Below are positions 10,691-27,455 of a DNA stretch of 50,902 bases, one piece after another. The DNA lies in NCBI GenBank assembly GCA_016222805.1, contig JACRQG010000047.1:1-50902 (forward strand), in the 5' to 3' direction. The position numbers and the translations under genes are program-made. Below the pieces are notes generated by a model that had not been told where the DNA came from, did not search any database, and worked only from the letters and a program-made list of their open reading frames with translations. Source of the DNA: Verrucomicrobiota bacterium (lineage in GTDB: Bacteria > Verrucomicrobiota > Verrucomicrobiia > Opitutales > Opitutaceae). How positions within the stretch are numbered: position 1 is the first letter of the stretch; each line of letters begins with the position of its first letter.

Positions 10691-10775
10691 CTGGTGTAGC
10701 CGGGGGCGGTGACCCCGGCACGGGACCTGGTGAAACCCGGTCCGATACGGCCGGGCTCAACGAGCCCGGCTACAG
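10691..10775. repeat. Inverted doublet of family 2 palindromic repeats
   Basis: The left unit, TGTAGCCGGGG..., has a 7-bp stem (10699-10705 with 10713-10719). The right unit has a perfect 9-bp stem GCCGGGCTC/GAGCCCGGC (10750-10758 with 10762-10770), then TACAG. The outer ends are complementary (GTAGCCGGG and CCCGGCTAC), so the whole can also fold as one long hairpin. Bases 10691-10719 are identical to 36139-36167. The doublet sits between the convergent S55 gene and the giant Ig gene, where it could help end both transcripts, although no T-runs are present. Confidence 0.85.
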
Positions 10776-10803: not shown

Positions 10804-13800
10804 CTACGGATCGACGTCGTAGACTTCGACGATGCCGACGCCCGTGGAATTGCTGACACCGTTCAGTTGCACGGTGTAGGCACCGGGCGGTAGCATCACG
10901 AGCATCGCAGCGTCGCGGCTGTTGCTGGCGAAGGGGAACGCCCCTGCGGTGGAGGCGGCCGTCGCGATGATCGCGGCGTCAGCTCCGGAGGCCCAATTGT
11001 CGTTGCTGCGGATCACCCGGCCGGTGGATTGCGCCACGAGCGTCAGCTGCGGATCGGCGAGGACGCCGGGGACGCCAAAGCTGGCCAGGGTCGGACCGGC
11101 ACCGCGGATGAGCATCCGGCGGGAGACCTCACCGTTCACGACAAAGCCGGCGATGAGCTGACTGGCGCCCGTGCCGACGAAGCCGCGGGTGGAGACATTG
11201 GCCGCCTTCGGCCCGGCGGGCCCGCCCTGCGTGACGTCGTAGACCTCAATCAAGACGACACCCGTCGCGTTCGGGGTCGCGGCCGGCACGACGGCCTGGA
11301 CGGTGTAGGGCCCCGGGGGAAGCGTCGCGAGGATGGCGGCGTCACGGGAATTGCCGGGCAGCGCAAAGGCACCCGCGCGGGTGGCGGCCTGCTGGATGGC
11401 AGCGACCTGCGCCGGTCCGGCGGCCTGGGTACCCCAGTCGTCGTTGGTCAGCACGGGATTGCGGTTGTTGCCGGCGTAAAGTTCGAGCGTCGGATTCGGG
11501 AGGGCGTTCGCGACGTTGAAGGGAGCGCCGCCCAACGTCGGCCCAATCACGCGGATCAACATCTGCCGGGTCTGCGCGGCGGTGCCGGTGACGATGAAGC
11601 CGCCGATCAGCACGTTGGAACCCGCGCTGGTCACGCCGCGCGTCGAGATGTTGGCGAGGCGGGTCGGCACGCTCGACAGCGTGAGGGTGGCGGCGTCGCT
11701 CGTCGCCGTGGCCACGCTGCTGGTGATGGCCACCGTGTAGGTTCCCGCATTGCCCGCGTTGACGTTGGTCAGGCTCAGCAGCGGATTCGTGGCTCCAGGA
11801 ATCGGCGAACCGTTGAGCAGCCACTGGTACGTCAGCGGAGGCGCCCCGGTGGCCTCGACCGAGAAGAGCGCCCCGGAACGCGGGGCCACCGTCAGCGATT
11901 CCGGATGCTTCGTGATCGTGACATAGCGGTAGGTGTAGAGGGTGTCCTTCAGCACCGCATCGGCAATGGACTTGTCATCCGGCAGCGTCGCCAGGGCGTC
12001 GACCTTGGCGGTGATGTCTTCCACCGTGATGGCGACCGACGGCCGCGCGAGTTGGTAGAAGATGGCCGCCGCCCGCGCGCGCTTGAAGAGCGCCGTGTTG
12101 TTGGCGTTGGTGAAGGTCACGAACTCGGCAAGCGCAGTGCTGAGGCCGGCGCTATTGTAGCCGCGGCCGTACGGCGGGGTCGGCGTGAGGTAAGCGGTGT
12201 TGTTGTTCTGGAAGCGGATGAGATCGAGCTCCCGATTCACCGCCGGGCGGGCGCCGGCGTTGCTCCAGAGCCGATCGAGGAAGGTCTGCGCCGGCATGGC
12301 GCCGACCGGATTGTTGAGGAGCGCGGTGCTGAGCGTGGAGGTCAGGCCGTACTTCAGCAGAAACTCGTTCGAGGCGATGATTGAGCCGGCCGCGTTGGTC
12401 AGGCTGCCGCGCGCGGTGGCCAGCAGCGGCGTGTAGTTCTGCGGAGTCGGCCACTGCCCCATGAGCACGTAGTAGAGCGCCAGGAGGTTGACCGGCGCCG
12501 TGAAGCCGGTGTCGGCGACAAGATTGGCCACGAGATCCGCGCGGGTCATCGAGCCCGCGGCGAGACGGGCGTCGAGATCATCGAAGAGCAGCGGGTTGAT
12601 CGACGTGGTGTTCGCGATGTCCTGGTAGGTCTGGAGGATGAAGGCCGCGTCCTCGAGAATCGGGTTGTTGCGCCGGACGATAATCTGGATCGGCGTCGAC
12701 AACGTCGTGTTGTTGGTGTTGTCCGTCGCGATGGCGTAGAGGTTGAAGGTGCCGGAGGCGGTGGGCGTCCAGTTCACCTGATAGCTGGTGCCGGCATTGG
12801 TGGAGGTGCCGAGGCTGGTGCCGTTGGCGAAGTACTGCACGCTGGCCACGGTGCCGTCGTTATCGCGGGCATTGGCCCGCAGCTGCACCTGCCGGCTGAA
12901 GGCGGCGCTGGTGGTCGACGGGAGCACGTCGATAAGCGGGGCGATGCTGGACGCGGCCACCACCGACATGAAGGAGGTGCCGGAAGCGGCGACGTTGCCC
13001 GCGCTGTCGGTGGCGAGCGCCACCACTTCGACTGAGCCGGGAGTAAGGCCCGTGGCATTGGCGGTGAGGCGCCAGGTGTTGGCGAGTTGATCGCGGACGG
13101 CCTGGCCGACGCTGTTGCGGTTGACGAAGAACTCCACGCCGACCACGGAGCCGTCGGAATCGGCGGCGGTCGCGGTGAAGTTGAAGGTGGACGCCGTGGT
13201 GACGGACCCCGGCACACTGACGCTGACGGTCGGGGCCAGTCCGTTGAGTTCGTTGACGACCACCGTGCGCGAGACGGAGCTCGTGTTCTGCACGCCTGCC
13301 ACCGTCGCCTGGGTCACCAGCGTGTAAGTGTCGGCGGTCGTCGGCGTCCAGATGGCGCGGTAGGTGGTCGTCGTGCCGATCCGCGTGCCGTTGATTTGGG
13401 TGCGCGAGCCGGAACTGCCGGTCGCGATGAAGGCCAGGGTCGGGACGGCGGTGGTACCGGTCGCACGGGCAGTGCCCTCGAGGAACACCGGCGCATTCAC
13501 GGTGGTGGCGGTGCTCGCCGTGGCGGGTCGCGTCAGGGTGGTCTCCGGGGCGTTGACGGCATTGACCTGCACGACGATGGCGGGCGACGCGATGGCGGTG
13601 TTGCCGGTGTCATCGGTGGCCACGGCGAACAGATTGTACCGGCCGGGCGTGGTCGCGTTGTAGGTGAAGATGGTCTGGCCGGAGACCGGGCTGCCGAGGC
13701 TCTGCACGTTCACGCCGTTGGCGTAGAGCTGGATGATCGTGACGTTGCCGTCCGAGTCACTGAAGGTCGGCAGGAGGAAGAGCTGGGTGCCCTGCGTCAC

Positions 13801-16800
13801 GGTCGTCGGGGTGAGCGCGCTGAGGCTGATGGTCGGGACCGCGCTGGTCGCCGCGTTGATCGTCAGGTTGGAGATCGCCGAGACGGTTTGGTTGTTGTTG
13901 CTGTCGCGGGCGATGGCATACAACGGCAGGATGTACTGTGACGGATTGTTGGGATTGACCGGGGCGCTCGCAAAATCGATGCGGCTGAAGTCGTAGGCGA
14001 GGCGGTAAAGGTTGGTCGCTTGTTCGCGCGACGCCAGGCCGATGCTGACGTCGTTCAGGAAGAACTCCACGTTGGTGATCGTGGTGTTGACGCCGTTGGC
14101 GAACGCGTTGGCGAGGAAGTTCACCTGCGAAAGGGTCTGCAGGCCAGTGCCCGGGATCGGCGTCGTGGAGATCGTGACCGTGGGAGGCGTCCCGACGGCG
14201 TTGGCCACCAGGACGTTCACCGGATTCGAGGTGGTGGTCTGGGAGTTGGTGTCCGTCACGCGCGCAGTGAGCTGATGATTGCCGAGCTGCGCCGTGGTTG
14301 GAATCCACGTGGTGGAATAGGTACCGAGCGCGGCATTGGTAGGAGTGGTGCGCGCGGCGATCTGGACCCCATCCAGCAGGAACTCCACCAGGAGCACGGA
14401 GGCACCGGCGCCCACCTGGACGGTCGCAGTCGCGGTGAGCGTCAACGGCACGTTGGGGGTGGCGCGGGCCGTGGCGTTCGGGTTTGGAGCCGTGATGGCA
14501 ATCGTCGGGACGGTGAAGGCCGCGGTGACCGTGGCGGAGTTCGAGACAGCGGTGTTGCCGTTGATGTCGGTCGCGATGGCGTCGATGACGTAACGACCAG
14601 GCGTCGTCGGGGTGAAGGTCGTCGTATAGGGAGCGGAGGTGAGGCCGTTCCCGCCGTTCACGCTGGCGGGGCTGCCATTCACGTAGAACTGGACGGACGA
14701 GACTGTGCTGAAGAGCGAGGTTGCGGTGGCGGCCAGCGTGACGGCGGTGCCGGGAACGGTGTTTGTGTTGTTGGCCGGCGTGAGCAGGCTGATGTTCGGC
14801 GGAGAACCCACCGGGGAAACCACCAGGACGGACAGCTGGGCGTCGCGGGCTGCGCCGGCGTTGTCCGTGGCGCGGGCGGAAAGGACAAAGGCCCGGGTCT
14901 GCTCACCGTCAGCCAGCGCCGGAGCGGTGTAGCGGTAGGTGTACGGCACGGTGGTGTCCTCCCCCACTTTGGTGCCGTCGACGAAGAACTCCACCCGCAC
15001 GACCGCTCGACCGGACGAGGCGGTGGAGTCAGCGACGAGGTTGCGCACCGCGCCACTAGGCAAGGTTGTGCTGGCGCCGGCGGCGGCGGTGCGGGGCGAG
15101 AGCGAAAGCGATACCGACGGCGAGAAGCTATCCGAGACCGTCACTCCGACCCCAGGGGTCGTGACGGCATTGCCGGTGGCGTCGGTGGCGATCGCGGTCA
15201 GCGAAACGGTGCCCAGGCTGTTCGGGAACCAGTTGAGGCTCCAGTTGGTACCGGAAATCGTGGCATTGCCGACCGAGACACCGTTGGCGAAAACCTGCAC
15301 CGAGCTGATGTTGGCGTCTGGGTCGGTGACCGTGCCGGTGACGGCGACGGTGGTGTTTACCGCGACAAAGGAACCCGCGATGGGCGTGAGGATGCCGACG
15401 GCCGGCGGTGTGCCCACCGCCCCGGTGATGACGATCGGGACGTTGGGCGAGGTGGCGACGCCGTTGCTTCCATCGATGGCGCGGGCGGTCAGCGTATGCG
15501 CACCCGCACTGGCCGGCGCAGTGAAGAGGATGTTGAAGGGCGCACCGCTGTCGGTCCCGATGAGCTGACCGTCCATGTAGAATTCCACCTGGGCGATGGC
15601 GGTGAGGCCGGAGACGGAGGCGGTAAGGTATCGCGAGGCCCCGATTGGAATCGTCGTACTCCCTCCGGAGACCGTAAGGTTTACCCCCAGTACCGTGGCG
15701 GAAGACACACTGACGGTGACGACGTTGGAGGTATCGACCGAGTTGTTCGAGTCGGTGACACGCGCAGTGAGGTTCAGGGTGGTCGCCGCGGATGTCGGCG
15801 TCCAATTGAAGGTGTAAACGCCATTGGCCGGGACCAGCGCGGTTCCGACGATGGTGGAACCCGCGAGGAAATCCACGCGGGTGACTGTGGCTCCGCCACC
15901 GGCGGTGGCCGCAGCGGTGAGGGCGACCGGCGTTCCCACCACGAGGGCCGTACCGGTGGTGGGGCTGGTGAGCGACACGGTCGGCGCGACCGTCGCGACG
16001 ATCACACTGACCGCAGTCGACGTGACGACCGCGCCGTTGGAGTCGGTGACGCGGGCCGTCAGCGACTGGGTGCCGGTCGAGGCCGGGGTCCAGGTGACGG
16101 CATAAGGGGCGGTGTTGGCCGAGCCGATGAAGGTCGAGCCGACATAGAAGTCCACCTTGGAGACCGTCGCCGGCGCCACGGCGGCTGCCGTGGCGGAAAT
16201 GGTCAGGGGCGTGGCAAAGCTGGCCGCCGTCCCCGGTGCCGGACTGGTGATGGCAACGGTGGGAGCGGTGATGTTCACGTTGACCACCGGAGAATTGACC
16301 ACCGTACCCGCAGTATCAGTCACGCGGGCGGTCAGGGCGACGATGCCGGCCGTGGTTGGGGTCCACGTGACCGTGTACGGCGCCGCCAACGCCGTGCCGA
16401 CGATGGTCGAACCGGCCAGGAAGTCGACCCGGGCGACTGCCAACCCGCCACTGGCGCTGGCCGTCGCGGTCAACGTGGCTGGAGCGGCGAGGCCGAGGTT
16501 CGTTCCGTTGGTTGGAGAAGTCAGTGCCACCGTGGGGACCGAGGCGGCCACCGTCACGCTGACGGCACTCGAGGTGACACTCACGCCGTTGGAGTCCACG
16601 ACCCGCGCCGTCAGGGAGACGGTGCCGGCCGGCGATGCGACCCAGGTGATGGAATAGGGCGCACTGTTGGCGGATCCGATCAGGGTCGAACCGGCAAAGA
16701 AATCCACCCGGCTGACGGTGGCGGCGCCGAACGCGGTGGGCACCGCGGTCAGGGTGACCGACGAATTCACGCCGACGACCGAGGCATTGGTCGGAGCCGT

Positions 16801-19800
16801 GAGCACCACGGTCGGCCCGACCACATTGACGTTGATGGCGGTCGTCGTGACGACCGTGCCATTGGAATCCGTGACCCGTGCGGTCAGGGAGGTAATGCCG
16901 GCAGCAGTGGGCGTCCACGCGACCGAATAGGGAGCAGTCAGCGAGGTGCCAACCACCGTCGTGCCCGCGAGGAAGTCGACGCGCGTGACCGTGGCGCCGG
17001 CCGCCGCGGAGGCGGTCGCCGTGAGGGTCGTCGTCGAGCCGAGGGCGATGTTGTCACCCGCGGTCGGGCTCGTGATGGACACGGTCGGCGGGAAGGCGCT
17101 GACGGTCACGCTCACCCCGGTGGAAGTGACCGTGGTGTTGTTGGAATCGACGACGCGCGCCGTAAGCGAGAAGGTGCCCGCGGACGACGGGGTCCAGGTG
17201 GCGGTATAAGGGGCGATGGCGGCACTTCCCACGAGGGTGGTGCCGGCGAAGAAGTCCACGCGGCTGACGGTCGCCGGGGCCACGGCGGACGCGGTGGCCG
17301 TCAGGGCCACGGGCGAGTTCACCCCGACAATCGCCCCGTTGGTCGGAGCGGTCAGGGCCACGGTCGGACCGACCACGTTCACATTAATCGCTGCGGACGT
17401 CACGGCGGTGCCGTTGGAATCGGTCACGCGCGCGGTCAAGGCGGTGATGCCTGAGGTCGTCGGCGTCCAGGCAACAGTGTACGGCGCCGTCAGGGCGGTG
17501 CCAACGACGGTCGTACCCGCCAGGAAATCGACGCGCGCAACCGTCGCTCCGCCGGTTGCACTGGCGGTGGCGGTCAGCGTGGCTGCGGCGCCCATGGGCA
17601 GCGTGTCACCCGCGTTGGGACTGGTCAGCGCCACCGTCGGCGGGAAAGAGGTCACGGTGACGTTGACCGCCGTTGAGGTCACAGTGATGCCGTTGGAATC
17701 GACCACGCGAGCGGTCAGGGCAACCGAACCGGCAGGAGTGGCCGTCCAGGTGATGGTGTAAGGCGCGGTGGCCGCACTGCCCACCAGGGTGGTGCCCGCG
17801 AAGAAATCCACCCGGCTCACATTGGCCGGGGCAATGGCCGAAGCCGACGCCGTCAAGGTGACGGCCGAGTTGGTGGTCACGACAGCGGCTGGAGTCGGAC
17901 TCGTCAGCGCCACCGTCGGGCCGGTCACGGTGACATTGACCGCGGTGGACGTCACGGAGGTGCCGTTCGAATCAGTGACGCGGGCCGTGAGCGCGGTGAT
18001 ACCGGCGGTAGTTGGGACCCACGTGGTGGTGTAAGGCGCCGTCAGGGCGGTCGCGACCACTGTGGAGCCGGCAAGGAAATCCACGCGGCTGACCGAAGCG
18101 CCTCCGGACGCGCTGGCCGTGGCGGTGAGCGTGGCCGACGCGCCGAGCGCGAGCGTGGCACCGTTCGCGGGCGCCGTGAGGGAGACCGTCGGCACCGAAC
18201 TGGCGACCGTGACGCCGACCGCGGCGGAAGTCACGGTGGCGTTGTTTGAATCGATAACTCGCGCCGTCAGGGAGACGGCACCGGTGGCGGTCGGCACCCA
18301 ATTCACGGTATAGGGGGCGACGAGGGCCGTGCCCACCAGGGTCGTGCCGGCAAGAAACTCCACCCGGGAGACACCCGCCGGAGCGACGGCCGTAGCGGAA
18401 GCCGTCAACGCAACGGTCGAACCAACGGTCACGGCGGAGCCGCTGGCGGGCGCGGTCAGCGCGACGCTGGGTGCGGTGACATTGACGTTCACCGTCGCCG
18501 AGGTCGCGGTCGCGCCGGTGGAGTCGGTCGCCCGCGCCGTCAAAGCGACCACCCCGCTGGCTGAGGGAGTCCAGGAGACCGAGTATGGTGCGGTGAGTGC
18601 CGTACCCACGACCGTCGATCCAGCGAGGAAATCGACCCGGGTGACGGTGGCGCTACCGGCAGCCGTGGCGGTTGCCGTCAAGGTCGAGGTCGTGCCGAGC
18701 GGCACGCTGGCGCCGTTCGCCGGCGCGGTCAAAGAGGCGGTCAGGGCCCCGGCCGCCGCCGCCACGTTGACGGTCACGGTGGAGGAAGTGACGATGGTGC
18801 CATTCGAATCGGTCACCCGCGCGGTGAGCGCCACGGTGCCGGAAGCCGCCGGGGTCCACGAAACAGAATAAGGAGCGGAGTTGTCGGTCGCGATCGGCAC
18901 GCCGTCCGCGAGGAACTGGACGCTCGTGACCGTCGTGCCGGTTCCTGCCGTGGCGTTGGCATTGACCGTGACGGCCGTTCCGGCGGTGGCGCTGGAGTTG
19001 TTGGACGGCGACGTAATCGACACCGTGGGAGCAACCGAGAGCACGGTGACCGAGCGGGAGTCGCTGCGGCTGTTGCCCTTGTCATCCGTGGCGGTCGCCA
19101 GCAGCGTGACGGTCTTGGCGACGTTGGGCGTCCAGGTCACGGAGTAAGGTGCCGTCAAATCGGTTCCGATGAGTTCTCCATCCGCGTAGAACGACACCCC
19201 GCCGGGGGCCGTGCTTGGGATGAAGCCGTCGGTGTCGCTCGCGGTGGCGGTCACGGTGACGGCGTTGCCCACGGCGATGACATCGGTGACGAGAGGGGCG
19301 ACGAACGCGACCGTCGGCGCAGCTCCCTGTTGGGCGGCGATGGTGATCGGGTAGGTGGCGGTGGAAGACCAGGTGGTGATCCCGTCGCTGGCGGTCGCCG
19401 TGGCCACGAGGTTATACGTTCCCGGAGCGTCGGTGAACGTGTGGTTGAGGAAATACGGAGCCGTCGTGATCGGTGCGCCGATCGCGGCGCCGTTGAAGGT
19501 GAAGCTGACACTGCCGACCACGCCATCCGACATGACGGCAGTGGCCCTCACCGGCACCTGGGAGTTCTGGGCGATCACGGCGTTGGTGGCCGGGGCACTC
19601 ACGCTCACGGTCCGCACCGCCGACACCGTAACCGTGACCGCCGCGGAAGTGAGCGTGTTGGGACTCGCGGTGTTGTCGGTTGCGATGGCCGAGAGGTTGT
19701 AGGTGCCCGGGGCCGCGGGGGTCCAGTTGACCGAGTAGGGAGCAGTGGTGGCGACCCCCACGGAGACGCCGTTGACGCGAAAGTCCACCTGCGAGATGGC

Positions 19801-19992
19801 ACCGCCCGCACTGGGAGTCGCCGTGGCGCTGATCGTGACCGAATTGCCCGGGGAGGAAAGGACACCGAGGGCGCCGGCCGCCGGAGCGGTGATGGCGACA
19901 CTGGTCGGAACGGTCGCCTGGGCCGACTGGGCGAACAGCAGGCCCGCGGCGAGCGCGGCGACCGACGGGATTCGTCGTGCAAGTAGGTTCAT
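10804..19992 (-). CDS. Giant exported protein with 25 Ig-like repeats (predicted surface adhesin/fibre)
   Basis: The product has 3062 residues. A Sec signal peptide (1-26, ending AQA) is followed by 25 consecutive Ig-like domains of 92-116 residues, to about residue 2443. Typical units read PTVSLTAPANGA, then RVDFLAGSTVVGTA, APYTVTWTP, and LTARVTDSNG, as in the bacterial Ig domain I know as Big_7. Domains 5-14 are all exactly 92 residues and alternate in two types. A helical domain of about 237 residues follows (2444-2680, DUF4214-like by pattern, for example FDDLDARLAAGSMTRADLVA). Next come a further Ig-like domain (about 2681-2777, YQWLLNGSPIPG) and two copies of a roughly 140-residue module with NISTRG/NVSTRG and MLIR..GPTL motifs. 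No membrane anchor or LPXTG is seen. The ATG lies 18 bases after the secretin stop with no terminator between, so co-transcription with the pilus-like genes is likely. Secretion through that secretin is conjecture. Confidence 0.88.
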   Translation of the reverse strand: MNLLARRIPSVAALAAGLLFAQSAQATVPTSVAITAPAAGALGVLSSPGNSVTISATATPSAGGAISQVDFRVNGVSVGVATTAPYSVNWTPAAPGTYNLSAIATDNTASPNTLTSAAVTVTVSAVRTVSVSAPATNAVIAQNSQVPVRATAVMSDGVVGSVSFTFNGAAIGAPITTAPYFLNHTFTDAPGTYNLVATATASDGITTWSSTATYPITIAAQQGAAPTVAFVAPLVTDVIAVGNAVTVTATASDTDGFIPSTAPGGVSFYADGELIGTDLTAPYSVTWTPNVAKTVTLLATATDDKGNSRSDSRSVTVLSVAPTVSITSPSNNSSATAGTAVTVNANATAGTGTTVTSVQFLADGVPIATDNSAPYSVSWTPAASGTVALTARVTDSNGTIVTSSTVTVNVAAAAGALTASLTAPANGASVPLGTTSTLTATATAAGSATVTRVDFLAGSTVVGTALTAPYSVSWTPSASGVVALTARATDSTGATATSATVNVNVTAPSVALTAPASGSAVTVGSTVALTASATAVAPAGVSRVEFLAGTTLVGTALVAPYTVNWVPTATGAVSLTARVIDSNNATVTSAAVGVTVASSVPTVSLTAPANGATLALGASATLTATASASGGASVSRVDFLAGSTVVATALTAPYTTTWVPTTAGITALTARVTDSNGTSVTSTAVNVTVTGPTVALTSPTPAAVVTTNSAVTLTASASAIAPANVSRVDFFAGTTLVGSAATAPYTITWTATPAGSVALTARVVDSNGITVTSTAVNVTVTSFPPTVALTSPNAGDTLPMGAAATLTATASATGGATVARVDFLAGTTVVGTALTAPYTVAWTPTTSGITALTARVTDSNGTAVTSAAINVNVVGPTVALTAPTNGAIVGVNSPVALTATASAVAPATVSRVDFFAGTTLVGSAAIAPYTATWTPSSAGTFSLTARVVDSNNTTVTSTGVSVTVSAFPPTVSITSPTAGDNIALGSTTTLTATASAAAGATVTRVDFLAGTTVVGTSLTAPYSVAWTPTAAGITSLTARVTDSNGTVVTTTAINVNVVGPTVVLTAPTNASVVGVNSSVTLTAVPTAFGAATVSRVDFFAGSTLIGSANSAPYSITWVASPAGTVSLTARVVDSNGVSVTSSAVSVTVAASVPTVALTSPTNGTNLGLAAPATLTATASASGGLAVARVDFLAGSTIVGTALAAPYTVTWTPTTAGIVALTARVTDTAGTVVNSPVVNVNITAPTVAITSPAPGTAASFATPLTISATAAAVAPATVSKVDFYVGSTFIGSANTAPYAVTWTPASTGTQSLTARVTDSNGAVVTSTAVSVIVATVAPTVSLTSPTTGTALVVGTPVALTAAATAGGGATVTRVDFLAGSTIVGTALVPANGVYTFNWTPTSAATTLNLTARVTDSNNSVDTSNVVTVSVSSATVLGVNLTVSGGSTTIPIGASRYLTASVSGLTAIAQVEFYMDGQLIGTDSGAPFNILFTAPASAGAHTLTARAIDGSNGVATSPNVPIVITGAVGTPPAVGILTPIAGSFVAVNTTVAVTGTVTDPDANISSVQVFANGVSVGNATISGTNWSLNWFPNSLGTVSLTAIATDATGNAVTTPGVGVTVSDSFSPSVSLSLSPRTAAAGASTTLPSGAVRNLVADSTASSGRAVVRVEFFVDGTKVGEDTTVPYTYRYTAPALADGEQTRAFVLSARATDNAGAARDAQLSVLVVSPVGSPPNISLLTPANNTNTVPGTAVTLAATATSLFSTVSSVQFYVNGSPASVNGGNGLTSAPYTTTFTPTTPGRYVIDAIATDINGNTAVSNSATVTAAFTVPTIAITAPNPNATARATPNVPLTLTATATVQVGAGASVLLVEFLLDGVQIAARTTPTNAALGTYSTTWIPTTAQLGNHQLTARVTDTNSQTTTSNPVNVLVANAVGTPPTVTISTTPIPGTGLQTLSQVNFLANAFANGVNTTITNVEFFLNDVSIGLASREQATNLYRLAYDFSRIDFASAPVNPNNPSQYILPLYAIARDSNNNQTVSAISNLTINAATSAVPTISLSALTPTTVTQGTQLFLLPTFSDSDGNVTIIQLYANGVNVQSLGSPVSGQTIFTYNATTPGRYNLFAVATDDTGNTAIASPAIVVQVNAVNAPETTLTRPATASTATTVNAPVFLEGTARATGTTAVPTLAFIATGSSGSRTQINGTRIGTTTTYRAIWTPTTADTYTLVTQATVAGVQNTSSVSRTVVVNELNGLAPTVSVSVPGSVTTASTFNFTATAADSDGSVVGVEFFVNRNSVGQAVRDQLANTWRLTANATGLTPGSVEVVALATDSAGNVAASGTSFMSVVAASSIAPLIDVLPSTTSAAFSRQVQLRANARDNDGTVASVQYFANGTSLGTSTNAGTSYQVNWTPTASGTFNLYAIATDNTNNTTLSTPIQIIVRRNNPILEDAAFILQTYQDIANTTSINPLLFDDLDARLAAGSMTRADLVANLVADTGFTAPVNLLALYYVLMGQWPTPQNYTPLLATARGSLTNAAGSIIASNEFLLKYGLTSTLSTALLNNPVGAMPAQTFLDRLWSNAGARPAVNRELDLIRFQNNNTAYLTPTPPYGRGYNSAGLSTALAEFVTFTNANNTALFKRARAAAIFYQLARPSVAITVEDITAKVDALATLPDDKSIADAVLKDTLYTYRYVTITKHPESLTVAPRSGALFSVEATGAPPLTYQWLLNGSPIPGATNPLLSLTNVNAGNAGTYTVAITSSVATATSDAATLTLSSVPTRLANISTRGVTSAGSNVLIGGFIVTGTAAQTRQMLIRVIGPTLGGAPFNVANALPNPTLELYAGNNRNPVLTNDDWGTQAAGPAQVAAIQQAATRAGAFALPGNSRDAAILATLPPGPYTVQAVVPAATPNATGVVLIEVYDVTQGGPAGPKAANVSTRGFVGTGASQLIAGFVVNGEVSRRMLIRGAGPTLASFGVPGVLADPQLTLVAQSTGRVIRSNDNWASGADAAIIATAASTAGAFPFASNSRDAAMLVMLPPGAYTVQLNGVSNSTGVGIVEVYDVDP
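15988..18747 (-). repeat. Higher-order tandem repeat: five copies of a 552-bp two-domain unit
   Basis: Inside the giant gene, Ig domains 5-14 (residues 416-1335) form five tandem dimers of 184 residues. The first domain of each pair has RVDFLAG and a GITALT/GVVALT strand; the second usually has APA.VSRVDFFAGTTLVGSA and a VDSN motif. Because odd domains resemble other odd ones and even resemble even, the array seems to have grown by duplication of pairs rather than of single domains. The first and last dimers match this pattern less well. DNA copies have diverged at many third positions, so the expansion is not very recent. Boundaries come from hand alignment. Confidence 0.8.
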
Positions 19993-20010
19993 GACGGACG
20001 TCGTGGCGGG

Positions 20011-22863
20011 TTATTTCGCTCCGCTGCGGGTGCGCGGTTCGGCGCTGGCCGGAGTCACGATGGTCGGGTTTTGGAAGAGCGAATTGGCCGGAGTGCTCTT
20101 CAGGTTCTGCTTCTTCGGCGAACCGCCGGGACTGACGAGGTTGGCGGTCACGAAGATGAGCAGGTTCCGCTTCTGGGCACTTTCGCCCTTGGAGCGGAAC
20201 AGGCGGCCGAGCAGCGGAATGTCGCCGAAGAACGGCACCTTGTCGTTGACCTTCTTGACCTCCTCCCGGGTGAGGCCGCCCATCACGAGAGTGGCGCCAT
20301 CCCAGATGGTCACCTTGGTGGAGATGTCGCGGACGGAGAAGATGGGCTGGTAGAAACCGGGCGGCACGGTGACGGTCACACCCGAGGAGATGGCGACGCT
20401 GGGGCCGCCGTATTCGACAAACCCCTCGAACTCGGTGACCCGCGGGTTGAGATCGAGGCTGATGCTGTAGTCGTCCTCTTCTACGGTCGGCGTGACCTTG
20501 AGCTCGACGCCGACATTGCGGGAGGTGAATTCCTGCGGGGTGCCGGCAGTGATGGTCACGCCGGCCGAGCTGAGACCGGTGCCGCCCGTGCCGCTACCGA
20601 CCTGGCTTTGAATTTCGCCGTAGCTCTGCGGATAGCGCAGTTCCTGGGCGACGGTGATGTTCGCCGGATTGCCGGAGAGGACCGTGAGGCGCGGCGAGCT
20701 GAGGAGGTCCGTGCCCTGCTTCTGGGACAACGCCCGCACGGCGGCGGTCACGTCGAACTCGCCCACGAATCCGGTGATGCTGCCCAACGCCGTGGCCACG
20801 GCGCCAAGCTGGACGCTGCCGGGAATCTGTGCCGGGGAGACCGGCACCGAGATGGTGTTGGCCGAGTTGGCGACTTCCGAGATGGTCAGGGCGTTCTGGT
20901 TCGAGGTGCTGGGGAAAGCGTTGAACAGCGGCCGGGTGACCTTGTCGGTGGAGTACGTTTCCTGCGGATCGAAGATCTGGCGACCGTTGGCGTCGAGCAC
21001 CGGCGCACCGGTGGTGGGATTCACCCGCGCGATGCCGCGGCGGCTGAGGTTCCAATTGACGCCCAGTTCTTCCAGGGCGCCTTCCTGCACCTCCATGAAC
21101 TTCGCCTCGATCTCCACCTGCCGGACGTCGTTGTAGCGAGCGAGGATGTTGCGGATGCGCTCGTTGTTCCGGGCCGTCTGGGTGACGATGATGGCGGAGC
21201 CGTCGTAAGCGAGCGAGCTGCCCTCGACGGTGAAGCTCACACCCGCCTGCTGCAGGAAGGCCTTCATGGCCGCGGCCTCGCCCCCCGCCGGCGCGGGAGT
21301 GGCTTCGCTAGTGTTACCCTCCGGAGAGGCAAACGGGTCGCGGTTCGCGGAAGCGCTGGTGCTGCCCGCCATGCCCGTCATGCGCAGGACGGTCGCGCGA
21401 GTCACCGGGAAGAACTGCGTCTCGAGCGTGGTGGTCTCACCGCCGGGGCGAACCACCACCGCGTCGGCCTGGACTTCGTACTGGTAGCCGATGGCCTCCG
21501 TGACGAAGTCGAGCACCCGCTTGAGGGTGGCGTTCCGGAGCGTCAGGGTGACCTGCGGGTTCTTGTTGCTCGGATCGATCAGGACGACATTGACGCCCTT
21601 GACGCCGCCCGAAGAGGTGCGGTCGAACTCCTCCGAAATGGCGCTGAGCGCCGCCACGACATCGCCGATGGTGGCCCGGGTCCAGCTGACCGACGGGAGC
21701 GTGATTTCCGACAGCTTCTTGGCCAGGGGCGCGATGGCCGCGGCCTGGTCAACCTCGCGGGGACGCTCCTGGTAGATGCCCGGGCGCTGCCAGCTCTTGG
21801 AGACCTCCTCGAGCAGTTGGGCGCGCGTCTTCTCACGGTTGAGCGCTCCCATTTCGGTTTTTTCCTCGGCGATGCGGAGGAGGAAGCCCTTGGCGACGGT
21901 GTTGTCGGGCTCCTGTGCCTCGATGGCGCGGAACGTCTCCTGCGCCCCGTCGAGGTCGCCGGCAACATACTGGGCGCGGCCTTTGGCGACCAATTGGGCG
22001 GTGTTGGCGCGCTCCGCCACGTAACCAGGATCCGCGGCGACGGCAGCGGGCTTGGTTTCGGCGCGGACGAGCTGGCGCTCGAGGGCGGCGGAGCGCGTGT
22101 CGGCCGGGGCGAGCCGTCCGTGGGCGGCGAGCGCGGCGCGGGCGCCGTCATTGTCGCCCTTCTTGATCAGGATCTGGGCGCGCTCGAGGAGGGCGGCGGC
22201 CTTCTCTTTCTTAAGATCGGCGCTGAGCTTCTGCGTTGCGGGATTCTCCGGCAAGGTCGCCAGCACGGCATCAACCGTGGCGATAGCGTCGTCCGGCTTG
22301 TTGTTGCGGAGTTGACTGCGGGCCGCCGCGAGGCGGGCCTGGCCTTCCATCACCAACTGATCGAGCCGGGCGGCCTCGGCGCGGGCGAGCGCTTCGGCTT
22401 CCTGCTCCGGCGTCGGGGTGGCAGGGGCTGCGGCCGCCTGGCCGGGTTCGGGAATGCGGACATCGATCATCGCCGGCGCCGCCTTGGCCGGCGTGGCCTG
22501 AGCGACCGCCACCGGGCGGGGGGCTTCGGCGGGAGCCGGGGCGCGGCGGGCGGCCTCCTGGGCAGCCTTCTCGGCGGCGGCCTGCTGCGCCAGGGCCGCC
22601 TGCTGGGCGGTCGCCTGGGCCTCGATCTCCGCCTTCAGGCGCTGCACGGCCCGGTCGTCCGGTGTAAGGGCGGTCAGCTGCGCGAGCGCTTTTTGCGCGC
22701 CGGCCAGGTCGCCGGCGTCACGGGCCCGGAGCGCCTCGGCCATGAGGCGAATCTTGGTGTCCGTGGGGTTTTGCGCGAACGCCTCGCGGAGCGGCACCGC
22801 CACGGCCAGGAGGGCGGCGACCAGCGCGACAAGCAGTGACGCAGGAAGGGGTCGAGTATTCAT
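20011..22863 (-). CDS. Secretin-family outer-membrane channel (Amuc_1098-like)
   Basis: The protein is predicted to form the multimeric outer-membrane gate of a type IV pilus-like or type II secretion-like machine. Its 950 residues comprise a signal peptide (about 1-30) and a long Ala/Gln/Glu-rich helical region with TPR-like pieces (about 35-360, two similar DGA..AL.A stretches). A small secretin N-type domain lies near 415-470 (VTLTLRNATLKRVLDFVTE). The secretin core runs from about 580 to the end, starting VEIEAKFMEVQEGALEELGV and including VPFFGDIPLLGRLFR and LLIFVTANLV. Those late motifs are diagnostic of secretins. It follows the Amuc_1099-like gene by 27 bases and precedes the giant Ig gene by 18. 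The match in order to Akkermansia Amuc_1098-1102 is from memory. The start context is CCTCCCTTTCTGCA, with no Shine-Dalgarno. Confidence 0.92.
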   Translation of the reverse strand: MNTRPLPASLLVALVAALLAVAVPLREAFAQNPTDTKIRLMAEALRARDAGDLAGAQKALAQLTALTPDDRAVQRLKAEIEAQATAQQAALAQQAAAEKAAQEAARRAPAPAEAPRPVAVAQATPAKAAPAMIDVRIPEPGQAAAAPATPTPEQEAEALARAEAARLDQLVMEGQARLAAARSQLRNNKPDDAIATVDAVLATLPENPATQKLSADLKKEKAAALLERAQILIKKGDNDGARAALAAHGRLAPADTRSAALERQLVRAETKPAAVAADPGYVAERANTAQLVAKGRAQYVAGDLDGAQETFRAIEAQEPDNTVAKGFLLRIAEEKTEMGALNREKTRAQLLEEVSKSWQRPGIYQERPREVDQAAAIAPLAKKLSEITLPSVSWTRATIGDVVAALSAISEEFDRTSSGGVKGVNVVLIDPSNKNPQVTLTLRNATLKRVLDFVTEAIGYQYEVQADAVVVRPGGETTTLETQFFPVTRATVLRMTGMAGSTSASANRDPFASPEGNTSEATPAPAGGEAAAMKAFLQQAGVSFTVEGSSLAYDGSAIIVTQTARNNERIRNILARYNDVRQVEIEAKFMEVQEGALEELGVNWNLSRRGIARVNPTTGAPVLDANGRQIFDPQETYSTDKVTRPLFNAFPSTSNQNALTISEVANSANTISVPVSPAQIPGSVQLGAVATALGSITGFVGEFDVTAAVRALSQKQGTDLLSSPRLTVLSGNPANITVAQELRYPQSYGEIQSQVGSGTGGTGLSSAGVTITAGTPQEFTSRNVGVELKVTPTVEEDDYSISLDLNPRVTEFEGFVEYGGPSVAISSGVTVTVPPGFYQPIFSVRDISTKVTIWDGATLVMGGLTREEVKKVNDKVPFFGDIPLLGRLFRSKGESAQKRNLLIFVTANLVSPGGSPKKQNLKSTPANSLFQNPTIVTPASAEPRTRSGAK

Positions 22864-22890
22864 TGCAGAAAGGGAGGATGGGGAGGTGAA

Positions 22891-23766
22891 TCAGGGAGTG
22901 GTGGCGGTCGGTTCGGTCTCGTCCGGCCCCTCGGTTTCGCGGGGAGTGAGCACACGGCGATCGGGCTGGAGCAGACTCGGGGACTCTTTGGTGATCTCGA
23001 TGGTCGGCGGCGTGGTTTCGATGCGATCCACGCGGAAGGTGGCTTCCCCGATCTTGAAGGAATCGCCGGTCCGTACCTCGCGGGCCGCCGTCTGGCCGGT
23101 CTCCGCGACAAAGGCAAAGACCGTACCGGTGTACGTGCGCTCGCGATGCGTCAGGGTGATGTCCCGATTGGCCTTTTCGTCCCGGATGACGGCGGTCGCC
23201 ACCCGCTGACGGGTGGTCATGCTCTCCGGGAGGGCGATTGGCTGCGGATCGACGTCGAGCCGCTTGATGGACAGCGCCAGGTTCGGCAGACGATGCCCGG
23301 CGGAGGCCAGGAACACCTCGCCGGACATGGCGTTCTGGAAGACTCCGCGCCAGGAGCCGGGTTGTCCGACGTAACCGATCAACTGGAGGCGAAACGGTTC
23401 CGGGCGCACGGCGACCAGTTCGATGCCGAAGGCCTCCGTAGTCTCCTCGTCGAGCAGGCTCGATGGCGGGCGAACCGTAAACCCCTTCGATCGTGGATTG
23501 TAGTAGATTTCCGGCGGCGTGAAGGCGTCGTACACCCAGTCCCGGCCGCGGGTCTGGGCCGGCGGCGCGGGCCACTGCTCCGTCTTGATCGGCGGGGCCT
23601 CCGGCGCGGTGGGCGCGTACGGTGCCTCGGTCAGTTGCACCTGGGGCACCGGAGCGTTGGGACTGGCGTCGCGACGGATCGCCAGCATCCCGAATCCGGC
23701 GGCCGACCCCAAGGCGAGCAGCACGGCGGCGCCGAACAGGACTTTATCGCTGGAAAGTGCGGGCAT
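22891..23766 (-). CDS. Single-pass pilus-like periplasmic protein (Amuc_1099-like)
   Basis: The 291-residue protein has one N-terminal membrane segment (about residues 8-29, VLFGAAVLLALGSAAGFGML) and a proline-rich linker (about 33-75). A beta-rich periplasmic part follows, with TRGRDWVYDAFTPPEIYYN, IQLVA/LQLIGYVG-type strands and an S/T/E/P-rich tail. It does not resemble an enzyme. The position directly before the secretin, the membrane topology and the proline-rich linker suit a PilP/GspC-like component bridging inner membrane and secretin; this is inference. The Amuc_1099 label rests on its place in the five-gene order. The spacing is 30 bases from the upstream gene and 27 to the secretin. 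Confidence 0.7.
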   Translation of the reverse strand: MPALSSDKVLFGAAVLLALGSAAGFGMLAIRRDASPNAPVPQVQLTEAPYAPTAPEAPPIKTEQWPAPPAQTRGRDWVYDAFTPPEIYYNPRSKGFTVRPPSSLLDEETTEAFGIELVAVRPEPFRLQLIGYVGQPGSWRGVFQNAMSGEVFLASAGHRLPNLALSIKRLDVDPQPIALPESMTTRQRVATAVIRDEKANRDITLTHRERTYTGTVFAFVAETGQTAAREVRTGDSFKIGEATFRVDRIETTPPTIEITKESPSLLQPDRRVLTPRETEGPDETEPTATTP

Positions 23767-23796
23767 GCGGGCGGAGGGGACGGAAATTCCGGAGCG

Positions 23797-24897
23797 TCAG
23801 GAGGTGGACGGCGCAGGTTGCTCCTCGGCGGGCGCGGTGTTCGCCGGCAGGAGGTCGATGAATTCCACGGTGACCGTGAACTTCGACAGCGACTTGGACA
23901 CGATCGGTGTCGTCGTGGCGCGGGCGGCGCTGGCGGGAGCCTGGGTCTTCGTGGCGGCCTCCTTGCTGGCCGTTCCTTTCGGGGCGGCGTCGGTCGTGAG
24001 GACAACAGACGGGGAAGTCGGGGTCTCGGATGAGGCCGCCGGCACGTTGTCACTGGCCGCGGACGCCGATTCCTCGGCCGTCGCGGGCTCCACTTCGACC
24101 TCGCGGACGAGCACGGGGAGTTCAAAGGACGCCAGCCGGCTGAGGAAGGCGCGGAGGGTCGCAGTCTGGCCGGTGAAGACGAACCGGAAGGGGGTTGTGT
24201 CGAGGTACCCCTTCACCCGCGCACTGACGCGAGGATCAATGACAAAGTAGTCGGGCGAATCGGAACCCGCGTCCACGGCTGTTTCGTCGGGCGTCTCCCC
24301 ATTCGCTTCGGCGGCGGCGCGGGCCTCCCGTTCCGCCTTGGTGAGCGTGCGTTCGCGCTTGATCGAAATCACCGCCCGGGGCTTCGCCTCGAGAAGGGCG
24401 GTGATCAGGTACTCCGCAATCTGTCGCTGACGGAAGATCGGGGCGATGCGGTCCGTCTCCGGTCCTTCGTTGGCGTACTTCGAGAACCCGAACCGGGCCG
24501 CCTCCGGCCGCAACTCCACCCCATGTTTCTCGGCGACCTCGCGGGTGCGTTCGACAAATGTCGCCAGATCGAAGTACGAGTCGGTCCGCGACGCCGGCAC
24601 CTTGGCGGTGCCCAGGCGCTCGAGCGCCGGCCCCTTGCCCGTCAACTCACCCTGCATGGCCGCGAGCGACTTCTGTGCCTTGGCCAGATCGGCTTCGATG
24701 GCGGCGGCCACCTCGCGGGTCGGGGGCGGAGCGAGCTGCGCCATGCCCTCGAGCTCCACCTTGCGCTGGGCGAGTCGCTTCTCGGCATCACGCAACGCCG
24801 CGTAACGCTCGTACGCGAGTGCCAGCTCACCGACGGCCACCACTCCACAGACGGTGAGCCCAAAGGCGAACAAGGGATACTTTCGGTACCAGTTCAT
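23797..24897 (-). CDS. Amuc_1100-like pilus-associated inner-membrane protein
   Basis: The product has 366 residues: a short cytoplasmic start (MNWYRKYP), one membrane segment (about 8-27), a coiled-coil (about 30-90), then a mixed alpha/beta domain containing RQRQIAEYLITALLEAKPRAVISI and FRFVFTGQTATLRAFLSRLA. Close to the end is a low-complexity Ser/Thr/Ala stretch of about 70 residues, then a final strand FTVTVEFIDLLP. The layout is that of PilO/GspM-type proteins. Amuc_1100 of Akkermansia muciniphila, known as an abundant outer-membrane-associated protein acting on TLR2, has such a fold, and its gene holds the equivalent place between the PilM-like and 1099-like genes. Orthology is inferred from order and topology. 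The start lies 6 bases after the PilM-like stop, implying coupling. Confidence 0.75.
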   Translation of the reverse strand: MNWYRKYPLFAFGLTVCGVVAVGELALAYERYAALRDAEKRLAQRKVELEGMAQLAPPPTREVAAAIEADLAKAQKSLAAMQGELTGKGPALERLGTAKVPASRTDSYFDLATFVERTREVAEKHGVELRPEAARFGFSKYANEGPETDRIAPIFRQRQIAEYLITALLEAKPRAVISIKRERTLTKAEREARAAAEANGETPDETAVDAGSDSPDYFVIDPRVSARVKGYLDTTPFRFVFTGQTATLRAFLSRLASFELPVLVREVEVEPATAEESASAASDNVPAASSETPTSPSVVLTTDAAPKGTASKEAATKTQAPASAARATTTPIVSKSLSKFTVTVEFIDLLPANTAPAEEQPAPSTS

Positions 24898-24903
24898 CGG
24901 CGC

Positions 24904-26655
24904 TCAGAGGGTCTGTTTCGGGTTGATCACCAGGGTGAAGTCGAAATGCAGCAGCCCGTTCTGGTTCGTGTCGAAGCGCTCGTTCTCGACGGCGGTGATG
25001 AACTTCGAGTCCGTGAAGCCGGCGAGCAGTTCCTTGACGCGCTGGAGCGACTCGGGGCTTACCTTGGACTGCGGGTTCCGCACGTCGAGCAGGCGGCCAC
25101 TCAGGGCGAGCCGGATCGTGGGGCCTTTCTTCGGCGGCGGCACCGGGTCAGCCGCAGGCGCCGCGGCAGGCTGGCCGTCGGCCGGGACGGGCTCCGTCGG
25201 CGGAGGCTCCGGAGGGGCCGCATCGGGTTCCGGAGCTGCCGGGCGCAGCACCTGTAGGCGGTCAAGCCAGACATCCTCCACCGCCACCAGCCGTTGTTGA
25301 AGATCGGTGAAGAAGTTCACCCAGTTCGCCTTCGTCTCGTAGGCACCGGTCAACGCATTGATCTGTTTCCGCGCCTCCACGATCTGGCGCAGGTTTTCCT
25401 CGTTGCGATTCTGCACGGACCGCAACGGCATCAACTGCCCATCGTACTGGGACACCCGTTCCTCCGTCGCGGTTGCCAGCCGGTGCAGGTAGTAGGCGGG
25501 CGGAGCCAGGGCGAGGGTGGCCAGGGCGGCGGCGGCGAGCAACAGCGGTTGCTTCTTGCGGAACGCCAGGGCGGCGGTGAGCGCCGGCGGGAGCAGGCTC
25601 GCCTCCGTCTCTGTCGGCACGACCAGCCGGGTGGCCAGGCCCACGAGGTCAGCGAGAACCTGTGCGGCTCCCTCGGCACCGGCGGCGCGGGCGTCGGCCG
25701 CCACGTCGACGTTCTTGAGCGCCTCGTAGCGCTCAACCGGAATCCGGAGCTTCTCCGCCAGGGTTCCCGGCAACTCTTCGATCAGGGAGCCGCCTCCGGT
25801 GAGATACAGCGCCACGGCCGCCCCACCCCCCGAATGCCGGCGGTGATTGACGGCCGAGCGTGTGATCTCGAGCTGGAGGCGGGAGCAGAAACTGGAGGCG
25901 GCGCGCTGGACCGCCGCGCGCGACGGAGACCCGATCGGCAGATCGCTCTGCCCGGACAGGACCTGGATCTTGAGGGTCTCGGCCGCCGCAAAATCGATGC
26001 GGAGTTCCTCGGAGATGGCCTGGGTCATCGCGTTTCCGGCCAGCGCCAGGGTGCGGATGTAGAACCGGTCGCCCTCGACAAAGAGCAGATTGGTCGTGCG
26101 GGCGCCCACATTCACCACGATGACCGGCTCGATGACCTTCGGGTAGTTGTACCGGAAGGCGTGGCACAGGGCCAGGCCGGCGGGCAGCGCCCGTTCGACT
26201 GGGAACCCGGCGGCGTCGGCGGCGCCGCAGAGCGCCTGCATGGCGTCGAACTTCACGGCGGTCAGCATCACCTCCAGGTCGAAGCCGTCGTCCGCCACCA
26301 CCAGGTGATCCCAGACGACCTCCTCCAAGGGGTACGGGATATTCTCCGCCGCCTCGAAGGCCACGATCTTGACGCGCTTCTCTTTTGCCACCGATGGCGT
26401 CTTGATGAACTTGGTCAGGGCGAGGTGCCCGGGAACCGCGATGGCGGCGGAGCCTGCGAGCTTGCGACGCGTGACGATGGCTCCGAGCGATTGCGCAATC
26501 TCGACCGCCCAGCGGTTTTCGTGGGTCGGATCGGAGCTGTGGGGCTCCAGGGCAAACTGCTGCAGCACCAGGCGCCCGGAAGCTCCCACCCCAAAGACGC
26601 CACAGGCGACATGGCCGGCACCGATGTCAACGGCAAGAACGCGGGGGGCTCGCAT
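24904..26655 (-). CDS. PilM-like ATPase fused to a PilN-like membrane part (Amuc_1101-like)
   Basis: The 583-residue protein begins with an actin-fold nucleotide-binding domain of the PilM/FtsA type: phosphate-1 motif VLAVDIGAGHVACGVFG (6-22), IPYPLEEVVWDHLVV, a phosphate-2-like VVNVGARTTNLLFVEG and an adenosine-type LTGGGS. After about residue 360 it continues through one membrane helix (about 366-388), a coiled-coil, a proline-rich linker (about 473-510) and a small C-terminal domain. PilM and PilN are separate proteins in most type IV pilus systems, so this is a natural fusion of cytoplasmic and membrane subunits. There is a 194-base gap to the upstream Amuc_1102-like gene, long enough for an internal promoter. 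A weak candidate there is TTGAAA (complement of 26792-26797), without a good -10. The start context is ACCCTCCTTATC. Confidence 0.85.
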   Translation of the reverse strand: MRAPRVLAVDIGAGHVACGVFGVGASGRLVLQQFALEPHSSDPTHENRWAVEIAQSLGAIVTRRKLAGSAAIAVPGHLALTKFIKTPSVAKEKRVKIVAFEAAENIPYPLEEVVWDHLVVADDGFDLEVMLTAVKFDAMQALCGAADAAGFPVERALPAGLALCHAFRYNYPKVIEPVIVVNVGARTTNLLFVEGDRFYIRTLALAGNAMTQAISEELRIDFAAAETLKIQVLSGQSDLPIGSPSRAAVQRAASSFCSRLQLEITRSAVNHRRHSGGGAAVALYLTGGGSLIEELPGTLAEKLRIPVERYEALKNVDVAADARAAGAEGAAQVLADLVGLATRLVVPTETEASLLPPALTAALAFRKKQPLLLAAAALATLALAPPAYYLHRLATATEERVSQYDGQLMPLRSVQNRNEENLRQIVEARKQINALTGAYETKANWVNFFTDLQQRLVAVEDVWLDRLQVLRPAAPEPDAAPPEPPPTEPVPADGQPAAAPAADPVPPPKKGPTIRLALSGRLLDVRNPQSKVSPESLQRVKELLAGFTDSKFITAVENERFDTNQNGLLHFDFTLVINPKQTL

Positions 26656-26849
26656 GATAAGGAGGGTGCGGAAAGGGCTCCTGGTCAGCGGGCACCGGGG
26701 GCGACGGGATCGCCCACAAGGGCGCGAGTTGAATTTCCGCCGCGGACTTCAGGGGAATGAGGCACGGTGTCTAAGAGGCTGTTGGACGCGATTTCAAAAG
26801 GGGCGAGACGCGGCAAGTGTATTATGGTTACGTCGAAGATCCCTCCGGC

Positions 26850-27455
26850 CTACCGGTTCTCCCTTCGCACAAACGACGGCGTGGCACGCGGATACTCGTT
26901 TGCGAACGGCGTCAGGTACTGGGGCAGCAGGACGCCGTCGTTGGTGGCGGCGGAGGCGCTGCCACGCTTCTGAAAGTTCTTCCGTTGCTCGTTCCCCGGG
27001 AGCGAGCCGCTGTAGGCCGCACGGGCAGCCGGCACAGGCTTGCCGTCGATCGCCAGTTCCACGCCCCAATACTTGGGGTCCGCATGCAACTGATCACGCT
27101 TCACAATCTCCGGAGGCAGGTAGAAGCGGACGTCCGAGCGCCCGGACTCCAGGGCCACACATTCCGCCTCCGCCCGGTAGTAGTCGAGCCGGCGTTCCGC
27201 ACCGGCAGTGGCCGGAAGTTCAAATGCCAGCAGCAACGACACCTTGACCCGCGGCACCATCTGCCCCGGCGCCCCCGGACCCGGCTTGGCTGTGAGGCCC
27301 AGCGTCCCCTCCAGCCAGGTGCCGTTCGAACCCGTCGGCGCCCGGACATTCGTGAAACGCACCGTCGTCACCTCCACCGTCTGCCCGCTCCCCGGCACCG
27401 CGCAGGCACACCACAGGAGGACGGCCACGGAGAGGGGGGATGTCAGGAGACGCAC
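26850..27455 (-). CDS. Small exported pilus-like protein (Amuc_1102-like)
   Basis: The product has about 201 residues, with a signal peptide (MRLLTSPLSVAVLLWCACAV..., cleavage near GSGQ). Its beta-rich body contains VRFTNVRAP and WLEGTLGL, a VRFYLPPEIVKRDQ segment and a PKYWGVELAIDG strand. It has no enzyme motif. The open frame extends much further upstream, but that part is the shadow of the divergent Nudix gene. The GTG at 27455 gives the signal peptide and leaves 100 bases to the divergent ATG at 27555. It is first in the pilus-like run and matches the place and kind of Amuc_1102 in the Akkermansia order I recall. The start is preceded by TTTTTCCCC. Confidence 0.72.
   Translation of the reverse strand: MRLLTSPLSVAVLLWCACAVPGSGQTVEVTTVRFTNVRAPTGSNGTWLEGTLGLTAKPGPGAPGQMVPRVKVSLLLAFELPATAGAERRLDYYRAEAECVALESGRSDVRFYLPPEIVKRDQLHADPKYWGVELAIDGKPVPAARAAYSGSLPGNEQRKNFQKRGSASAATNDGVLLPQYLTPFANEYPRATPSFVRRENR

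Follow-up and report, generated by a model that had tools for sequence, protein, structure and literature searches.

The locus described here has its closest described counterpart in Akkermansia. In the accessible portion of PMC13174399, the Akkermansia Amuc_1102-1098 locus is tied to attachment and glycan uptake, and MUL2 refers to amuc_1099-1102, next to which lies the secretin. The Amuc_1098-1102 proteins were reported in 2017 to be abundant in a membrane and envelope fraction (PMC5332112). The words Opitut, adhesin, giant, and immunoglobulin do not appear in that portion of PMC13174399. In the accessible text of the open-licence literature searched, a giant gene in the slot after the secretin is not described, and an absence of this scope is weak evidence.

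Several other known systems also bear comparison with the window, by which we mean the entire 50,902-nucleotide stretch of DNA that was analyzed. As in the type IVa pilus gene set pilMNOPQ, the window carries PilM, PilN-, PilO-, and PilP-like proteins and a secretin in the same order, but a giant exported protein comes next and the contig has no match to PilB/GspE or PilC/GspF. The inner-membrane platform of type II secretion is homologous in general. The window secretin has similarity to GspD, although its score with the GspD equivalog TIGR02517 (142.6 bits) is below the cut-off of 351 bits. Homologues of the PilB and PilC types are plentiful on other contigs of the same genome, which has at least 7 strong GspE/PilB-type ATPase frames.

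Two further parallels concern the giant protein itself. Giant adhesins such as SiiE and BAP are also exported proteins of Ig-like repeats. The giant of the window differs from them in that it appears to be coupled to a secretin machine and has no RTX-type domain in a Pfam scan. Like the cargo of the Bacteroidota Type IX system, the giant carries a conserved kind of C-terminal domain (CTD) that many proteins of its genome have in common. This likeness is one of copy number and distribution, and the CTD of the window has no Pfam match.

The locus and its parts

The locus consists of six genes on one strand (Table 1). Gene order, the PilM-N fusion, an Amuc_1100-like protein, an Amuc_1098-type secretin, and the Amuc_1102 fold are all held in common with Akkermansia MUL2. 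The initial annotation had matched the genes to the Akkermansia order and knew of no description of this locus with a giant adhesin as its last gene. The Akkermansia-type locus L140 agrees on both points: its small protein has a match to the crystal sequence of Amuc_1102 (6e-145), and its secretin is followed, unlike that of the window, by a 563-nt gap and then an ORF of 517 aa.

Table 1. Coordinates and assignments of features in and around the six-gene locus
Feature	Position	Strand	Assignment and evidence
Locus, six genes	10804-27455	minus	In order: Amuc_1102-fold exported protein, PilM-N, PilO-like, PilP-like, secretin, giant
Small exported protein, 201 aa	26850..27455	-	GTG start; Amuc_1102 fold
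PilM-PilN-like fusion, 583 aa	24904..26655	-	Amuc_1101-like; NF045709 336 bits (cut-off 650); TIGR01175 pilM 94 bits (cut-off 133); PF11104
PilO-like protein, 366 aa	23797..24897	-	Amuc_1100-like; NF038287 86 bits, E 2.9e-24 (cut-off 180)
PilP-like protein, 291 aa	22891..23766	-	Amuc_1099 position; named by position relative to L140
Secretin, 950 aa	20011..22863	-	Amuc_1098-like; NF042912 438 bits, E 6.6e-131 (cut-off 750); PF00263 E 3e-36
Giant exported Ig-repeat protein, 3062 aa	10804..19992	-	One open frame; start 18 nt past the secretin stop
Signal-peptide-like N-terminus of giant, residues 1-26	19915..19992	-	Read from the sequence
Ig-repeat stalk of giant, about residues 27-2439	12676..19914	-	Big_7 repeats
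Helical domain of giant, about residues 2440-2690	11923..12675	-	15 helices in the AF2 model
I-set Ig domain of giant, residues 2692-2767	11692..11919	-	
Two tandem C-terminal beta domains of giant	10807..11670	-	CTD1 about 11251-11670; CTD2 about 10807-11250
G+C-rich hairpin/palindrome 3' of giant	10749..10771		10 pairs; T-run only in the + direction

The window agrees with the Amuc_1102-1098 locus in gene order and in the Amuc_1102 fold of its small exported protein, which gives no NCBIfam match. The window secretin, PilM-N fusion, and PilO-like protein fall short of the NCBIfam equivalog cut-offs for Amuc_1098, Amuc_1101, and Amuc_1100, which are still their best-matching families. In this respect they are unlike Akkermansia MUL2, and on these scores we regard them as divergent members. 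The PilN part of the fusion was read from the sequence and from the Amuc_1101 match. For the PilP-like protein there was no NCBIfam match, and Pfam gave only a sub-threshold match to DUF6406. Searches of PDB sequences returned no match to the PilO-like protein up to E 1 and only general GspD/PilQ-type matches to the secretin, the N-terminus of which has TPR matches. A PilMNOPQ-type platform with its secretin is present in the window, with scores below the cut-offs of the pilM model (Table 1) and of the PilQ model (122 bits against 284).

The ORFs, their strands, and the spacings of 6, 30, 27, and 18 nt were all as first claimed, but the list of spacings had omitted a 194-nt gap before pilM (26656-26849). 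Because of this gap, the small exported gene may have its own transcription. It had also been claimed that no hairpin lies between the secretin and the giant, and a consensus scan of 19993-20010 found no promoter- or terminator-like site on the minus strand; a single weak terminator-like site on the plus strand overlaps this interval. Given the direction of its T-run, the hairpin beyond the giant is no clear terminator for that gene. This intergenic palindrome is possibly a repeat element.

The gene after the secretin

To be counted in the close set, a locus had to have a long secretin whose best segment reaches 63% identity or more, which gave 35 loci (L004-L040 minus L037 and L039). An ORF of the giant's family is next after the secretin in all 32 evaluable loci of this set, and the remaining 3 of the 35 have no room downstream. 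The lack of a recurrent giant beside this locus in related genomes was among the grounds on which the initial annotation would have given up its idea, and on this point its expectation was borne out. Among the 32 loci, 18 have complete giants, 13 have ORFs cut by the end of the locus or contig, and one (L013) is interrupted at 203 aa; the cut ORFs were placed in the family on their resemblance to residues 1-400 of the giant, which are Ig repeats. Total length varies among the 18 complete copies (1503-2931 aa) and the ends are kept. Near the end, all 18 retain the module of helical and Ig domains, and 17 have both CTDs, the exception being L016. No giant was found with four short-secretin cousins (L045, L054, L064, and L070), despite best segments that are 63-69% identical.

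When all 80 secretin loci from named genomes were considered, 6 had no downstream room and 74 could be scored. The next position holds a complete family giant in 19 of the 74, a cut family ORF in 15, an exonuclease in 17, another short ORF in 18 (including L013 with its interrupted giant-family start), another cut ORF in 4, and nothing in 1. In this count, family means similarity to the first 400 or the last 600 residues of the giant, and cut ORFs were recognized through their Ig repeats.

The giant had been described as the last gene of the operon. This is so in the window, which has no exonuclease of the type found elsewhere, but not across the family, where 13 of 21 loci have a 5'-3' exonuclease gene on the same strand beyond the giant, two of the compared loci (L136 and L021) being on one contig. 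The gaps run from -35 to 493 nt, apart from 2633 nt in L036, and the exonuclease is thus within 0.5 kb of the giant in 12 of the 13. In outside lineages, an exonuclease or other housekeeping-type gene often stands directly after the secretin. The exonuclease after the giant looks as though giants were inserted into a secretin-exonuclease junction.

Of 337 genomes in the phylum, 311 have a match to the Amuc_1098 secretin model, 38 of them above its cut-off; 14 control genomes have none. None of 35 loci outside the order (L140-L174), chosen among the best matches listed for their spread over families, has an ORF of at least 1400 aa beside the secretin; of these, L146 has no secretin call, and L148, L155, L167, L169, and L171 leave less than 1.2 kb of room. 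Giant-less machines are the rule outside the order, and therefore the machine does not need the giant. Most machines of this kind outside the close set are without a giant among the loci examined.

Giants of other make-up occupy the same slot within the order. Six of 12 in-order loci with this secretin type (L127-L133 and L135-L139) have a giant there. The one in L136, on the same contig as L021, belongs to the window's giant family. The slot ORFs of the other Opitutales loci (L127, L132, L137, L138, and L139) encode 1467-3136 aa and have neither the helical domain nor the CTDs; they carry Big_7 in L127, L137, and L138, a DUF4214 match in L132, and PPC domains in L139. A Puniceicoccaceae MAG (L062) has the CTDs and no helical domain. 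As a separate observation, Puniceicoccaceae K14 (L063) has an exported-looking protein of 249 aa after the secretin, and the second half of this protein is a single CTD.

The genome of the window has two secretin loci besides that of the window. One is a second, similarly built operon (contig C51, L115/L116) of the pilM-N-O-P-Q type, which is followed by an open frame of 6396 residues. The secretin in its counterpart L119 is PilQ-like (TIGR02515, 248 bits with a cut-off of 284). We compared 25 loci with this second operon, leaving out L134, L191, and L192, which reach only 74-104 bits to its secretin. One locus (G012) ends at the secretin, and a large or still-open same-strand ORF is next in 22 of the 24 evaluable loci; 9 of the 24 (G000, G002, G003, G008, G011, G024, G025, G026, and G032) had been picked with the giant already visible beside the secretin, and the proportion is 13 of 15 for those picked without foreknowledge. 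Of the next ORFs, 16 are complete (1106-6396 aa) and 6 are open at a contig or locus end; G030 and G038 lack an ORF of this kind. These giants differ in composition, with Big_7 plus PD40 in L119 and L176, Big_7 without PD40 in L120, L122, and L184, and RCC1 repeats in L186, a protein of 2339 aa.

The giant protein and its end domains

Pfam recognizes 24 stretches of Big_7 (E 3.6e-238) together with one I-set domain in the giant, whose GC content at the three codon positions is 0.57/0.60/0.86. No Pfam match was obtained for the helical domain or the CTDs with max_evalue set to 10, and assignment of the helical domain to a known family was rejected on this result. A fold search with a 625-residue model of the giant was filled by Ig matches, and because the pTM of this model is 0.46, we do not trust its predicted arrangement of domains. 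In a protein collection, 113 clusters (1687-3409 aa) match the helical stretch in a search restricted to proteins of about 1684 aa or longer. Among the matches listed, the names are hypothetical or Ig-like and the organism is Opitutaceae or Opitutus. Scores for carbohydrate-binding families all stay below their cut-offs in the giant, one expansin-type cellulose-binding match being far below at 18 of 100 bits, which speaks against a role in glycan capture.

The helical domain is found in 19 of 27 genomes of the genus, with one match each except for two in G018, and in none of 30 other genomes. It is also present in G208 (the genome of L136), from another genus of the same family and outside this set, which rules it out as a mark of the genus. 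G018 has two MUL2-type operons (L190 and L092/L031), each with its own giant. The CTD, by comparison, has 147 matches in the window's own genome, where 150 of 216 candidates were scored. These matches are spread over many contigs and lie in open frames that range from some 160 to 6400 aa. The CTD was also found in 34 of 57 related genomes. It is abundant even in four genus genomes that have no strong hit to this secretin: G005 (17 matches), G006 (66), G023 (63), and G016 (at least 73, a lower bound because at most 73 candidates were scored per relative). These four genomes led us to reject the CTD as a private export signal of the machine. The tandem CTD is possibly a proteome-wide sorting or surface domain of Opitutaceae.

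We used the 27 genus genomes to compare the presence of secretin and giant. With giant CTD2 (>170 bits) as the marker, 19 genomes have both, 3 the secretin only, 1 the giant only (G026), and 4 neither (Fisher p 0.009, a value that ignores phylogeny). If the helical domain is taken as marker instead, the corresponding numbers are 18, 4, 1, and 4. Of the four genomes with the secretin only (G002, G004, G010, and G024), G024 has a contig that ends inside the giant, while G002 and G004 have a related, shorter secretin and no giant, which counts against linking the fiber to the machine. The same is true of G026 (80% complete), which has the giant's end and no secretin match.

Sequence divergence gives a further measure of association. 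Computed over 14 of 18 aligned loci, identities at the end of the giant correlate with pilM identities (r 0.80) and with secretin identities (r 0.69; 0 of 2000 permutations for this pair), and the secretin-pilM value is r 0.50. The giant's end thus tracks pilM and the secretin at least as well as those two track each other. In 25 Opitutales loci, genes of at least 1400 aa make up 10 of 311, and all 10 are directly after the secretin (0 of the 301 others); this count used our own gene caller on stretches cut to leave room for the slot, with genes cut at the ends and loci chosen partly for the giant.

Explanations for the linkage of giant and machine

The recurrence of the giant, its single helical domain per genome, the other giants in the slot, and the second operon together make the functional coupling of giant and machine well supported, and we consider it probable. 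The simplest reading is that Opitutaceae gave the MUL2-type machine, and a second pilus-type machine, a long surface fiber. In its fuller form, to which we lean tentatively, the locus would be the Opitutaceae version of a MUL2-type envelope-spanning machine with a dedicated giant surface fiber that the secretin exports or anchors for capture. We infer co-transcription, a route through the secretin, surface display, and glycan binding or capture as its steps. The giant would be made together with the machine, would cross the inner membrane by means of its signal peptide, and would then leave through the secretin or stay held there. The helical domain, which occurs only in the giant in the genomes searched, may mark the giant as the partner of this machine. 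If each Ig domain spans about 4 nm, a stalk of some 24 or more such domains could display the giant outside the cell over roughly 100 nm. The displayed fiber might keep particles or polysaccharides near the uptake machine.

Other explanations must be weighed against this one. The giant could be a surface protein that sits in the operon for co-regulation and exits by a general type II-like route or whichever route serves other CTD proteins. This is somewhat unlikely, but the many CTD copies (147 matches in the window's genome, and abundant in the four genomes without a strong secretin hit), the two other secretin loci, and the many ATPase frames all fit it. It does not account for a helical domain private to the giant gene in the genomes searched, or for other giants, some without these CTDs (RCC1 in L186 and DUF4214 in L132), that recur in the same kind of slot. 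The wide occurrence of the CTD and of PilB- and PilC-type genes bears equally on the proposal in the initial annotation of a new secretion system. That proposal went too far: machines of this kind are already known (MUL2/PilMNOPQ), the genome encodes ATPase and PilC homologues at other places, and the terminal domains recur in many proteins, including those of genomes that lack this secretin.

In another reading, the machine builds a true type IV pilus with pilins from other parts of the genome, and the giant is carried on the tip or shaft in the manner of PilY1 in other bacteria. We judge this unlikely. The PilB- and PilC-type genes elsewhere in the genome would fit it, as would the giant that accompanies the PilQ-like secretin of the second operon and the propeller-type repeats (PD40 or RCC1) of several slot giants. 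Against it, the window contig offers no PilB/GspE or PilC/GspF match, and Pfam finds no VWA or propeller domain in the giant. Least probable, in our view, is neutral linkage, in which a giant would have reached the secretin-exonuclease junction in one ancestral event and been passed on with no functional tie to the machine. The exonuclease or housekeeping-type gene after the secretin in many outside lineages, and the exonuclease that so often follows the giant, are what such an insertion would leave. A single neutral event is hard to reconcile with different giants in the slot of five other Opitutales loci, large ORFs after the second operon, and the paired operons and giants of G018.

Returning to the dedicated fiber, a bolder and unlikely extension is that the PilMNOPQ-type machines of Opitutales are one-cargo display systems. 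Each operon would have its own giant in a swappable slot, the giant rather than a pilin would be the surface filament, the helical domain would dock the fiber in its own secretin, and the fiber would retain polymer where the uptake channel opens. The recurrence of the giant after the machine genes points to a machine that may export or display the fiber or act together with it. A giant fiber that is genetically tied to the machine, and has a domain seen nowhere else in the genome, is a concrete candidate for the outer part of the Verrucomicrobiota pilus-like machine, which in Akkermansia and its relatives is linked to glycan attachment and uptake, and because the second operon repeats the design, two machine-fiber pairs can be compared in one cell.

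Two additional observations were made in the course of these comparisons. Three contigs (L013, L043, and L048) are labelled Burkholderiales or Akkermansia muciniphila and carry secretins close to those of Opitutales, which suggests wrong bins or names. Finally, the third secretin locus of the window's genome (L117, contig C16) has PilO/PilP-sized genes and two N-termini that appear prepilin-like by eye, the only ones noticed. With matches to GspE/PilB and GspF/PilC also present within some 11 kb, this locus is perhaps a complete type II or type IV system.
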